64,000 nt of DNA from Adhaeribacter terrigena. GTDB lineage: Bacteria > Bacteroidota > Bacteroidia > Cytophagales > Hymenobacteraceae. The notes beneath the pieces are model-generated. The model ran no database searches. It saw nothing but the letters and a program-made list of their open reading frames with translations, and was not told the origin of the DNA. Position numbers and translations under genes: made by a program. Shown piece after piece: positions 33,572 to 38,301 of the stretch. Where the stretch lies: the NCBI RefSeq assembly GCF_016623615.1, contig NZ_JAEHFX010000001.1, positions 806,001 to 870,000 on the forward strand, in the 5' to 3' direction. Numbering within the stretch: position 1 is the stretch's first letter; every line of letters starts with the position of its first letter.

Positions 33572-34024
33572 TCATTCCCGGTTCTGGGAGTCGATGATGA
33601 TGGTTACCGGGCCGTCGTTTACCAGCGAAACTTTCATGTCGGCGCCGAATTCTCCGGTCTGAATGGGTTTGCCAAGGTCGGTTTGGAGTTGGGTTATGAA
33701 TTGCTCGTATAGTGGAATGGCAATGGCCGGCGGCGCAGCGTTAATGTACGAAGGGCGGTTTCCTTTTTTAGTATTGGCGAAAAGCGTAAACTGGCTGATG
33801 AGTAAAAGTTCACCCTTTACATCCAACACGCTTAAGTTCATTTTGTCGTCAGCATCTGAAAAAATACGCAACTGCACCAGCTTTTTCGAGGTCCAGATCA
33901 GGTCTTCGGTAGTATCGGAAGCTGTCAAGCCGGCCAATATCAATAAACCCTGACCGATCGCACCTTTAATCTGACCGTCAATTTTTACCGATGCTTCGCT
34001 CACGCGCTGAATAACTACCCGCAT
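33572..34024 (-). CDS. dtd: D-aminoacyl-tRNA deacylase
   Basis: Removes D-amino acids (and glycine from tRNA-Ala) mischarged on tRNA. The 150 residues are full length with the two family motifs: LISQFTLFA near residue 78 and the C-terminal NDGPVTIIID carrying the Gly-cisPro-like GPVT at about 138-141. MRVVIQRVSEASVKIDG is the standard N-terminus. It is soluble and cytoplasmic. Confidence 0.95.
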   Translation of the reverse strand: MRVVIQRVSEASVKIDGQIKGAIGQGLLILAGLTASDTTEDLIWTSKKLVQLRIFSDADDKMNLSVLDVKGELLLISQFTLFANTKKGNRPSYINAAPPAIAIPLYEQFITQLQTDLGKPIQTGEFGADMKVSLVNDGPVTIIIDSQNRE

Positions 34025-34100: not shown

Positions 34101-34138
34101 AAAAAAAAGTCAGCCTGAACGTTCAGGCTGACTTTTTT
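34101..34138. terminator. terminator of the FadL/SGNH operon
   Basis: Perfect 18-bp arms AAAAAAGTCAGCCTGAAC / GTTCAGGCTGACTTTTTT. Its AAAAAAGTC word also forms the end of the next dispersed element. Confidence 0.88.
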
Positions 34139-34161
34139 ACAATAAAACTATAGCGTTTTTT
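34131..34161 (-). repeat. 29-bp dispersed element, copy 24
   Basis: AAAAAACGCTATAG, TTTTATTGT, AAAAAAGTC on the minus strand. It starts at the stop codon of the SGNH-like gene and ends inside its terminator. Confidence 0.78.
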
Positions 34162-35524
34162 ACAGGCCCATGGCCGGATAATCGTTCACGTTAACTTCCG
34201 GGATCTTTGTTCCGAAACCAGAGAACTGCGGCGATTTTGGCAATACTTCCTGGTTCATTGCCTGGATGATCTTGTTGGCAACAATTGCCTGGCCGCGTGG
34301 CGTGAGGGTGAAATTATCGAGCGAGAAAACGCCGCCTTTTACCGGCGAAAGGTCGTATTTCACGCCGTTATAGATCACGCCGTTGCGCAGCGTACCAAAC
34401 AGCTGTTTCATATCGGCTACAATTACCATGTTGGCAAAAGCAGGATTCTTTACAATATCGGTGATCTTTACATTGTAGCGGTTCATGCGGGCCGTTAAAT
34501 GCTGAATTTCTTTGTAATTCAGTACTTCATCAGAATTCAGCGGATGTTGTTTGCTCAAACCATGCCCCTGCACGCCAATCGTAGTTCTGCCTTTCGGAGT
34601 GAGAATATCTTTAGCAACCACAACTACAGTGTCTACACCCTGGCTTGGTACATTCATGTTTTTCAGCACTTTTACCCAGATGGTTAAATTACTGTTGCCG
34701 GTTTGTTTGCGCAGATCGTCCTGAATTTTTACCAGGTCAGGCGCATAAGCAATCGGAAAATCTTCGTAAGAAGGCAGGTTCAGAATCACCCCTTTGCGTT
34801 CGGCTTTGCCGTTTGGCTGCCGCTTCGTCAGGTTATCGAGCAGGCTGTTCATCTCCGTAGTAAATTCAGCTTCTTCGGGAAGGGTACCGCAGGCGGCGCC
34901 ACTCATGATATAAGAGATCACGTCGCTCATGCCAAACCAGGCCGTAAAGAAAGTTGGGTTACTGGTACCGGCTACTTCCAGGTAACTGCGGTTATCGCTG
35001 GCGGGTAATATGCGTTCGAAATAAGGATTAAAGCCGGCTGTGTTCTGATTGGCTGAATTACCAAGGCCTGGCGTTTTAAGCTGCTTGATTTTAAGAGCCG
35101 GAACCCCAAAGTTCTGAACTTTTGCAAGATCACCGCCATAGGGTTTATTCAGGCTGGGCAGGCCAGTGCACTCTGCTAAAGTAAGTTTTACAAATTCTTC
35201 TGAATTCCGGATAGCCGGAGCCCCATTTTCCGAAGCAAGGGTCATCATGGGCGTGCCTTCGCCGGAAAAATACGGTTGTTCGAACGTGGCAGGTGCGCCG
35301 AATAAAGCAAATTGTTTAGCCAGAATAGCCGGGTAAGCATTTTGCTGGCTTTCGCGGGACAAGCCGCCGTTCATAAATCCAGCCGTAATATAATCGCCGT
35401 AGGCTACGTATCTGGTCAGGTTCAGGTCGGCGGAATTGGTATCGGGCGCTTCTATATCCGGCTGACAGGAAACTGCCAGAACTGATAATGCAAGGCCGGG
35501 AATTAAATATAAAAAACGTTTCAT
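34160..35524 (-). CDS. SGNH/GDSL-like outer-membrane lipoprotein lacking catalytic residues
   Basis: About 454 residues from ATG 35524; the open frame has a TTG three codons earlier. The lipobox is AVSC (Cys near 20). It resembles the Bacteroidota SGNH hydrolase lipoproteins that normally start YVxxGNSLTAGFxNGGL. Here the block reads YVAYGDYITAGFMNGGL, with Tyr where the nucleophilic Ser belongs. Near the C-terminus the usual DGVHLTPRG block reads LDNFTLTPRG, with Thr for His. It is probably a binding protein, not an esterase. The gene is 9 bp downstream of a FadL-type porin, suggesting a joint role with hydrophobic compounds. Confidence 0.75.
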   Translation of the reverse strand: MKRFLYLIPGLALSVLAVSCQPDIEAPDTNSADLNLTRYVAYGDYITAGFMNGGLSRESQQNAYPAILAKQFALFGAPATFEQPYFSGEGTPMMTLASENGAPAIRNSEEFVKLTLAECTGLPSLNKPYGGDLAKVQNFGVPALKIKQLKTPGLGNSANQNTAGFNPYFERILPASDNRSYLEVAGTSNPTFFTAWFGMSDVISYIMSGAACGTLPEEAEFTTEMNSLLDNLTKRQPNGKAERKGVILNLPSYEDFPIAYAPDLVKIQDDLRKQTGNSNLTIWVKVLKNMNVPSQGVDTVVVVAKDILTPKGRTTIGVQGHGLSKQHPLNSDEVLNYKEIQHLTARMNRYNVKITDIVKNPAFANMVIVADMKQLFGTLRNGVIYNGVKYDLSPVKGGVFSLDNFTLTPRGQAIVANKIIQAMNQEVLPKSPQFSGFGTKIPEVNVNDYPAMGL

Positions 35525-35533
35525 CTTCAGCAA

Positions 35534-36754
35534 TTAAAACTTGTAATTAAGGCCTAAACCTACACCATTTACCAGGGTACGGTATTTACCGGCCACATTT
35601 GCAACATTGGTTTTGGTAATATCAGTTACTGCGTTGCGTTCCGCCACTTTCTCAAACAGGTAAGCTGCATCGAGTTCAAAACGTTCCGAAAGTTTATAAG
35701 AAAGTCCGGCGGTTAAACCTATGCGGCTGCCGTCCGGCAATTCCGGCGAAATATATTCGTCGCGCACCGGGGTCTCGTCGTAGAAAAGACCGGCCCGGAA
35801 AGCCAGGTTGTCGCTGTGGCCATATTCGGTTCCCACCCGGAAAGCCATGGCATCTTCATATTTGCGGCCGGCCCGGCTGTCTGGCGTGGCAGCGTTTTCG
35901 AAGTTGAAGTTCAGCGAATCGTAGCTAGACCAGCCGGTGAGGTTAAATTCGAAAGCCACTAAAATTTTCTGATTAATGCGGTTGGTAAACCCAACGGAAA
36001 GGGTAGAAGGCAGCTCGAGGGTAGATTTGAAATTCTGGTTCGGGAACTGGCTGCTTAAGCTGGCCGGCACATTGGTGAAAGTGGCTTTTCCTTTGTCGAG
36101 GTTGAAATTTACGTTGGAACGGTAGGTAATGCCGAAGGAAAGTTCATCCTGGATCTTACCAAAAACGCCCGCATTAAAACCAAAGCCCGAAGCCGTACCG
36201 GTTAATTTGGCGTTGCTGTTAATTTCCCCGATCTGCCGGCGCACCAGCACATCGCCATAGGCATAAACCAGTCCGGCGCCGGCGCTGAAATTATCGGTAA
36301 TGCGGTAAGAAAGCGTAGGTTGCACGTAAAATGTTTTCAGGTTCACTTCCTGGCTCACCGAGCGGCCTTCCCAGTTATCTTCCCATTTCGTGCCAAGGCC
36401 GTAAGGGCTGTTCACGCTTAAACCCGCCGTTATTCTTTTGCTAACCGGAATGGCGGCGTACAGATAAGAAGGGAAAAATACCTGGCTTTCCATTTCGGAA
36501 ACAGTAGCCGTGTTGGCTGAAAGAAAGGTAGTTTTAGGCATCAGGAAGGTAGAGCCCACGCTGATGTAGCGACCTGAATCGAGCATGGACAAGGCACCGG
36601 GATTATAATAGGCCGCCGAGGCATCTTTGTTGTAAGCGCTGAACGCACCGCCCATACCAAGAGCCTTCTGCCCCTGCGTATTTACCTGGAAACCACCGGC
36701 CTGAGCCAGCATGGCTGCCGAAAGCAGGTAAATTGATAATAAAGTTTTCTTCAT
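35534..36754 (-). CDS. OmpP1/FadL-family outer-membrane transporter
   Basis: About 406 residues from ATG 36754; an in-frame TTG six codons upstream is rejected because MKKTLLSIYLLSAAMLAQAG is a clean signal peptide. The N-terminus after cleavage, GGFQVNTQGQKALGMGGAF, then AAYYNPGALSML, is the hallmark of FadL/TodX porins, followed by a 14-strand-type barrel ending in a final aromatic residue. It should let long-chain fatty acids or other hydrophobic molecules cross the outer membrane. It is first in an operon with the SGNH-like lipoprotein. Confidence 0.9.
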   Translation of the reverse strand: MKKTLLSIYLLSAAMLAQAGGFQVNTQGQKALGMGGAFSAYNKDASAAYYNPGALSMLDSGRYISVGSTFLMPKTTFLSANTATVSEMESQVFFPSYLYAAIPVSKRITAGLSVNSPYGLGTKWEDNWEGRSVSQEVNLKTFYVQPTLSYRITDNFSAGAGLVYAYGDVLVRRQIGEINSNAKLTGTASGFGFNAGVFGKIQDELSFGITYRSNVNFNLDKGKATFTNVPASLSSQFPNQNFKSTLELPSTLSVGFTNRINQKILVAFEFNLTGWSSYDSLNFNFENAATPDSRAGRKYEDAMAFRVGTEYGHSDNLAFRAGLFYDETPVRDEYISPELPDGSRIGLTAGLSYKLSERFELDAAYLFEKVAERNAVTDITKTNVANVAGKYRTLVNGVGLGLNYKF

Positions 36755-37185: not shown

Positions 37186-37728
37186 TCAGAAATCGCTTTT
37201 ATCGTACCACGAACGCATTTTCCAGTTATCGTTGCGGTTTTTGCGGGTGAGTACAATGCGGGCTGAACCTACCCCGCGGTAAATGGTGGCGTCATCCTGG
37301 TTAATGGTAAGGTTGAAGGCGCGTTCGGCAATGGCTACGGTGTCGGAAATGGCGGTATCGGCTAAAATATACTGGTTCCATTGCAGGGAAGTGGCGCGCA
37401 CCCCCCGGAAAAGCTTGTAGGTGGTGCTCATTTCCACGTCGCGGGGCCAGCTTACTTCGGTGTTGTTGGTAAAATCGAAATACGTGAACCGGAAATCGGG
37501 CGCTACGATCTGGCCATATAAAGTAGAGTCGCGGAGCTGGTAGGAATTGCGGAACCACTCGAAAAACCCGTTCACGGTTTTACGGTCACCCAGCAGTTTG
37601 TTCGGGTCGGTTACGGCATCGTCGAGTTCCGGGGCAAAAGGGTTGCAGGCCGCCAGCGAAGCGACCAGAACCAGCGGTAAAAGCCGGGTCAGCGCGCAAT
37701 AAAATGTTTTTTCAGATCGCTCCAGCAT
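37186..37728 (-). CDS. lipoprotein of unknown function (paralogue 2)
   Basis: 180 residues with lipobox SLAAC (Cys near 28). The mature part begins with a helix (VNGFFEWFRNSYQLRDSTLYGQIVAPDF split by turns) and ends in RIVLTRKNRNDNWKMRSWYD, a helix-plus-sheet pattern like the NTF2/SnoaL fold. The same layout, ending RLVLTRKNNEWLIAKWED, is present in the upstream neighbour, so the two are tandem paralogues. The start codon lies 40 bp inside the upstream gene. Confidence 0.7.
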   Translation of the reverse strand: MLERSEKTFYCALTRLLPLVLVASLAACNPFAPELDDAVTDPNKLLGDRKTVNGFFEWFRNSYQLRDSTLYGQIVAPDFRFTYFDFTNNTEVSWPRDVEMSTTYKLFRGVRATSLQWNQYILADTAISDTVAIAERAFNLTINQDDATIYRGVGSARIVLTRKNRNDNWKMRSWYDKSDF

Positions 37729-38252
37729 GCCTGGTTTTCCCGGTTATCTTCCCATTTGGCAATAAGCCACTCGTTATTTTTTCGCGTAAGGACCAGCCGC
37801 ATGGTGCCCGTAAAATCGTGAGGCTTGAGGGTGGTATCGGTGTGCGAAGTACGTAATTTATAAGAAAAAAACTGTTCCAGCGAATCGGCCCGGAAAAAAT
37901 TCTCACGCGTTTTGGTCAGGTCCAGCAAATTCAGGGCATTGCCGGCAGATTTGTTTTTCAGGCTGTTGAAGTAATCGCGTTCTTCGGCCGCAGTCCAGTT
38001 TTCAAATAAAGCGGTGTTGGCGCCCGCCGTGGCCGGATCGGCTTTGAACCGGAAACCGGGCGTAAAGCAGCGACTGTAAACGGAAATATTCAGGGTGCGT
38101 ACGGCTTTGGAAAAATTGTCGGTTAAAATATCGGGCTGGGTAGGCGGGGTCCATTCGCTTATGGCATCGGGTTTTTCGGGCTCGCGCACGTTAAAGCAGC
38201 CGCCGCAAAGCACTACAAGCAGCAAGAGCCAAACCACAGACCACTTTTGCAT
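37689..38252 (-). CDS. lipoprotein of unknown function (paralogue 1)
   Basis: About 187 residues from ATG 38252 (the frame reaches a TTG nine codons upstream). Signal MQKWSVVWLLLLVVLCGGC with Cys at 19. The mature domain has the same helix-then-sheet order as the next gene, with FSKAVRTLNISVYSRCFTPGFRF near the front and the RLVLTRKNNEWLIAKWED block near the end. Two mature Cys residues are present. It overlaps the start of paralogue 2 by 40 bp, so translation is coupled. Confidence 0.7.
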   Translation of the reverse strand: MQKWSVVWLLLLVVLCGGCFNVREPEKPDAISEWTPPTQPDILTDNFSKAVRTLNISVYSRCFTPGFRFKADPATAGANTALFENWTAAEERDYFNSLKNKSAGNALNLLDLTKTRENFFRADSLEQFFSYKLRTSHTDTTLKPHDFTGTMRLVLTRKNNEWLIAKWEDNRENQACWSDLKKHFIAR

Positions 38253-38301
38253 AAAAAGATAATTTCTATAAAAATACAAAGAATACCTGAAGCTGCCAAA
38301 C

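Follow-up and report, generated by a model that had tools for sequence, protein, structure and literature searches.

What could be the use of a lipoprotein that has the fold of an SGNH esterase, has lost the residues of its active site, and is encoded directly behind a FadL-type porin? The question is raised by two genes on the minus strand of the window (the whole stretch of 64,000 nucleotides that was analysed). The first, 35534-36754, encodes a FadL-family outer-membrane transporter of 406 aa, assigned by a PF03349 match, a structure model and an alignment; the second, 34160-35524, encodes a lipoprotein of 454 aa, which according to alignment and model has an SGNH fold and is a putative pseudoenzyme without the catalytic Ser, Asn and His. 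Between the FadL stop and the lipoprotein start lie 9 bp (35525-35533), and the coordinates of the open reading frames agree with the positions, the strand and the spacing given in the initial annotation of this DNA. Judging by the 9-bp gap, the two genes are likely to be on one transcript. A terminator-like hairpin (34103-34138, minus strand; -23.6 kcal/mol, z -8.57), with a stem of 16 pairs and a U run, is located 3' of the lipoprotein gene; it is absent from the output of the consensus scan. Since the hairpin separates the lipoprotein gene from dtd (33572-34024), which lies beyond it, a two-gene unit is likely. Two overlapping lipoprotein-like genes (37186-37728 and 37689-38279) are found on the same strand upstream of FadL; neither has an NCBIfam match or a significant Pfam match, and relatives of both also precede the pair in Adhaeribacter soli (L119), another member of Hymenobacteraceae.

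The AlphaFold2 model of the lipoprotein (119 aligned sequences; pLDDT 90.2, pTM 0.92) has the SGNH three-layer fold, and the closest structure among the matches listed is a GDSL esterase of Photobacterium (8hwp; Z 17.3, 247 residues, rmsd 3.8); some of the further matches are SGNH enzymes whose structures were determined in the presence of oleic acid, lauric acid and palmitate. Foldseek alone also ranks SGNH hydrolases at the top, none of them at E 0.001 or better. At the sequence level, PF00657 (Lipase_GDSL) gives 22.9 bits, just below its cut-off of 23.6, and the best E value of a PDB sequence search was 0.58. The origin from a protein of the SGNH esterase type, which the initial annotation proposed, is supported.

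The same annotation described the loss of Ser and His in the blocks YGDYITAGF and LDNFTLTPRG. Both blocks read as claimed, and an alignment of 121 relatives upholds the two losses: Tyr45 (35390-35392, minus strand, as are all codons below; GDYITAG) stands in the column of the nucleophile Ser, and Thr406 (34307-34309; LDNFTLTPRG for LDGVHLTPRG) in that of the catalytic His. It overlooked a third loss, that of the oxyanion-hole Asn in the GxND block, where Ser200 is found (34925-34927; GMSD for GNND), and also the fact that the loss extends to a whole clade, in which Ser is still present in 23 of 42 members. Gly140, by its alignment position the candidate for the oxyanion glycine of block II, is conserved (38/42 in the clade and 78/79 outside it). 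Sequencing error was considered as a cause of the replacements and is ruled out by a relative from the same genus (L003) and by 43 open copies of the gene. In an SGNH lipase, Ser10, Asn82 and His216 are each essential according to passages of PMC10779480; and judging by its sequence, the protein of the window most probably does not hydrolyse esters.

The clade was delimited by a search with profile A1, built of 17 rows; in a contig scan this alignment retrieved 51 loci of clade and non-clade relatives, and a single-protein query retrieved none. Members scoring 498 bits or more are found in 43 of the 204 genomes of the family, two of them in Adhaeribacter, the genus of the window, and 41 in Hymenobacter. 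Non-clade matches reach at most 327.3 bits in a sample of the order (390 genomes), and the top match outside the family reaches 294.6 bits in a sample of the phylum (296 genomes). Once sequences repeated over their last 300 residues had been dropped, together with open reading frames shorter than 380 aa, 121 rows were left of 147 matches: 42 distinct clade members (43 genomes minus one repeat) and 79 relatives outside the clade. Alignment A2 contains 119 of 120 sequences from a list that excluded rows outside 395-520 aa. In the counts the clade was labelled by two cysteines, Cys119 (35168-35170) and Cys212 (34889-34891), each present in 42/42 members and in 0/79 others; this gives the same set as the score, for which the loci were listed by hand. 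In the window lipoprotein these two residues may form a disulfide.

The catalytic columns behave differently from one another. The His column of the clade contains only Ser (26) and Thr (16), and the Asn column contains Asp (28), Gly (9), Glu (3) and Ser (2), so both residues are lost in 42/42 members. The Ser column is mixed: Ser 23, Thr 7, Gly 6, Asn 2, Tyr 2, Ala 1 and Leu 1. Considering that Ser is present in 23/42, what the clade has in common is that His and Asn are lost, rather than Ser. All three residues are gone in 19/42 members, against all three kept in 76/79 relatives outside (Ser in 78/78 scorable rows, one row having a gap; Asn in 77; His in 78). With the catalytic columns removed from the alignment, a branch with support 99 sets the clade apart; again without these columns, a mixture model on 61 of the 121 rows (hand-picked) gives this branch a support of 100/100. 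On the clade tree the Ser column requires at least 9 changes versus a median of 7 across 396 columns, the His column requires 10, all between Ser and Thr, and Asp403 none. Most simply, His and Asn would have been lost once, early, with Ser drifting later; that the ancestor of the clade had all three residues would follow from the wider superfamily, the tree being unrooted. The module in both genera presumably descends vertically, although a transfer between the genera is also possible.

The lost conserved positions are not concentrated in the active-site blocks (6/23 there versus 8/40 elsewhere, Fisher p 0.75), from which it follows that the lipoprotein has changed as a whole. One relative outside the clade deserves a separate mention. 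The locus L141:2569-4056 (Hymenobacter, genome G168) is a tandem second SGNH copy with the blocks GSS-F, GTSD and DGVY; it is the sole relative outside the clade without His, with Asn lost as well and Ser kept. Here the same decay seems to have begun independently.

Could the protein still be a hydrolase or a transferase that operates through other residues? In favour of this one can mention the invariant Asp403 (42/42), the Ser present in 23 of the 42 members, and a GDSL hydrolase of a fungus, for which an SGGI set is proposed and which passages of PMC11372007 report as active. The fungal enzyme keeps its Ser, and according to the same passages it was judged to be without Asn and His from a poor homology model; its activity implies that clade members keeping Ser might have some residual activity. 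The initial annotation would have been overturned by a true Ser-His pair elsewhere in the protein. All columns were searched, and none has His in at least 20% of the 42 clade rows; a Ser-His pair conserved at another place is thus lacking. Together with the changes in the Ser column and the joint lack of Ser, Asn and His in the window lipoprotein, this makes other chemistry improbable in our opinion.

Another possibility is that the gene is a decaying duplicate without a function. This would agree with the lack of a clade member in 161 of the 204 family genomes and with 19 regions, hand-picked from genomes without a listed clade member, of which 5 have the same neighbourhood but not the pair; in these five, mltG is beside gene c0 and no open reading frame of at least 80 aa is kept between them. 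Loss of the pair at these sites and gain elsewhere fit equally. The coding sequences themselves tell against decay. The dN/dS ratio is 0.024-0.134 in eight close pairs of clade members, including two pairs with Gly in place of Ser (0.024 and 0.055); it is 0.039-0.226 in seven pairs from outside, and the remaining one of 16 pairs in all, L001/L003, has no dS value. The reading frame has no internal stop in 43/43 clade copies, and the two cysteines are present in 42/42. The clade lipoprotein is kept under strong purifying selection, and we consider decay without function hardly credible.

The pair is near dtd in 14 and near mazG in 13 of 21 neighbourhoods, namely in the window and at many Hymenobacter loci. 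In Hymenobacter it often follows mltG and a RamB-like regulator and adjoins malate synthase (L113, L121, L123, L124 and others); the likeness of the regulator to RamB is distant (48.5 bits versus a cut-off of 700). A functional link to this block was considered and dropped, as L205, L221 and L222 have the same neighbours without the pair; the gene context is for this reason not used as an indication of function. A gene of about 500-560 aa (L126:6878-8386 and relatives, without a Pfam or NCBIfam match) adjoins and faces the lipoprotein gene in the 20 retrieved neighbourhoods but not in the window, and it is also found at sites without the pair.

FadL directly precedes the lipoprotein gene in 42/42 clade members and in 73/79 other relatives, the tandem copy L141 being one of the six exceptions; outside the family it does so at 14 of 17 loci of the phylum sample, from 8 families. 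No fewer than 8 further families of Bacteroidota have FadL-SGNH pairs with Ser and His. The partner porins of the clade (41 in the tree) are likewise set apart by a branch with support 99, and the distances of porins and lipoproteins correlate with r 0.886 over 41 pairs, which partly reflects the shared history of the species.

The genome of the window contains two PF03349 porins at E 1e-5, each followed by an SGNH lipoprotein. The initial annotation had paired the lipoprotein with FadL, which is true of the entire clade, but it missed this second pair. The second lipoprotein (L002:1489-2811, at G000:C20), the only other relative in the genome, also follows a FadL gene and shares 36.0% identity with that of the window over 378 columns, the genome search having given 35%. 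Its blocks GNSL, GNID and LDGVH contain Ser and His, both cysteines are absent, and its Lipase_GDSL score is 37.7 bits versus 22.9. In its block III, GNID stands where the relatives have GNND, i.e., Asn is shifted by one. All 17 genomes of the order sample that have a clade member also carry a second, lower-scoring match; among the second copies, which were retrieved for 15 of the 17, Ser and His are present in 15/15 and Asn in 14/15, with the exception in the genome of the window.

The porin of the window was correctly recognized as FadL-type in the initial annotation, and its model is that of a transport-type member. PF03349 gives 223.4 bits versus a cut-off of 29.7. The model (pLDDT 91.9), in which the start of the mature chain was set by hand after a 19-residue leader, superposes on E. 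coli FadL with Z 50.0 and rmsd 2.2 over 376 residues, and its residues 1-387 align with residues 1-421, including the N-terminal hatch. The values are Z about 34 for BamG and about 27 for chains of type 9 secretion, which we take to be PorV. The motif GGFQ directly follows the leader, GFQ matching the E. coli chain at residue 2; F3, NP and D307 (hand-aligned to E. coli D348) are the same in the porin of the window, and the solved entries matched include F3 and D348 mutants. In alignment A3 (93 of 111 porins, hand-picked), F3 is present in 35/39 clade partners, with Tyr in the other 4, versus 28/54 other porins, with Tyr in 24; D307, by the same hand alignment, is present in 37/39 versus 46/54. 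By sequence and model, this porin looks like a FadL of the transport type.

This matters for the reading in which the lipoprotein docks on the extracellular loops of FadL and plays a structural or gating part, its old pocket binding nothing important. Such docking has a precedent: according to passages of PMC12611786 and PMC12578637, the FadL-family BamG anchors the surface lipoprotein BamH via strands 3-7. The joint occurrence of the porin and lipoprotein genes (42/42) and the spread of change over the whole lipoprotein rather than the active site alone also speak for docking. However, the same passages describe the proximal end of BamH as a carbohydrate-binding fold, and the porin of the window is not BamG. 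It fails the NCBIfam BamG equivalog (65.6 bits, cut-off 250), which another gene of the genome passes with 380.3 bits as the actual BamG. The 19 residues before GGFQ leave no room for an N-terminal extension of the BamG type: in three BamG chains the counterparts of residue 2 of the model are residues 33, 36 and 46 (entry numbering), and the extension that passes through the lateral opening of B. thetaiotaomicron BamG comprises residues 23-37 (passages of PMC12578637). The identity of the pair with BamG/BamH was ruled out by the equivalog score, the separate BamG gene and the fold of BamH described in those passages. Docking also leaves the retention of the SGNH fold without explanation, and we regard it as a possible but doubtful solution.

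We favour, with a probability of about one half, the reading that the pair is a second FadL-SGNH module whose lipoprotein has turned into a non-hydrolytic partner and likely serves the porin by binding a lipid-like ligand. The genes of FadL and an SGNH lipoprotein would form a two-gene module in several families of Bacteroidota, and a second version of the whole module would have arisen in the lineage of Adhaeribacter and Hymenobacter. The lipoprotein of this version would have lost His and Asn and later, several times, Ser, and would be kept, catalytically empty, as a partner of its own FadL. At the outer membrane, its old acyl pocket would probably still hold a hydrophobic ligand, acyl-like or other, and hand it on to the FadL barrel, somewhat as SusD lipoproteins serve SusC barrels; the second FadL-SGNH pair in this cell may hydrolyse as well as import. 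The lack of hydrolysis, the binding of a ligand, its hand-off, the contact between lipoprotein and porin, the surface location and the activity of the other pair are what we infer here.

As to the surface location, lipobox Cys20 of the window lipoprotein (35465-35467) is followed by QPDIEA, with two acidic residues among the first six, and from this display at the surface is plausible; the rule, at least two acidic residues of six after Cys, is that used in PMC12578637. Only 13/42 clade members satisfy it, versus 69/79 relatives outside (3 of the 79 not scorable), which makes surface display unclear for the clade in general.

It is tempting to go further and to regard FadL-SGNH as a widespread module of Bacteroidota for hydrophobic nutrients, a lipid counterpart of SusCD, in which a surface esterase lipoprotein on a FadL barrel would cut acyl esters and feed the product in, the esterase of the clade having become a lid that only binds the ligand and has a porin to itself. 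We offer this generalization as speculation that is rather unlikely to hold in full. To our knowledge, little is known about the import of long-chain and other hydrophobic molecules through the outer membrane of Bacteroidota. The observation provides a clear case of a putative pseudoenzyme, with His and Asn gone throughout and Ser drifted across 42 sequences; the pair is kept in dozens of species, often beside a second pair with an intact-looking esterase. A single genome with versions that have and lack the catalytic residues offers a matched pair for separating cutting, binding and holding.

No FadL-SGNH pair is described in the titles and abstracts of the literature searched, the coverage of which excludes most subscription journals, or in the passages of PMC12611786, PMC12578637, PMC10779480, PMC12853789, PMC11372007 and PMC13304423. 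The only hint comes from passages of PMC12045153 on Flavobacterium johnsoniae, where Fjoh_4941 is a likely FadL, Fjoh_4940 is the adjoining lipoprotein, and a functional link between them might exist; the pair has in common with ours a FadL and a lipoprotein neighbour, but Fjoh_4940 is not called SGNH in those passages.

With the SGNH/GDSL superfamily (PF00657) the window protein shares the fold, the order of the motif blocks and the Asp at position -3 relative to the His column; it differs in having Ser, Asn and His replaced and in being a lipoprotein of 454 aa. The L002 pair and similar pairs of Bacteroidota have the same gene order, FadL partner and lipoprotein. The porin model superposes over its length on E. 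coli FadL (1t16, 3pf1), for which we know of no lipoprotein partner gene. BamG-BamH of the BAM complex of Bacteroidota is likewise a FadL-family barrel with a lipoprotein partner. We believe that the parts are of known kinds and that what is new is the separate retention of a pair in which the lipoprotein is catalytically empty. SusC-SusD combines a barrel with a ligand-binding lipoprotein, and the likeness of the window pair to it, for which no homology is claimed, would be in the possible way of working only.
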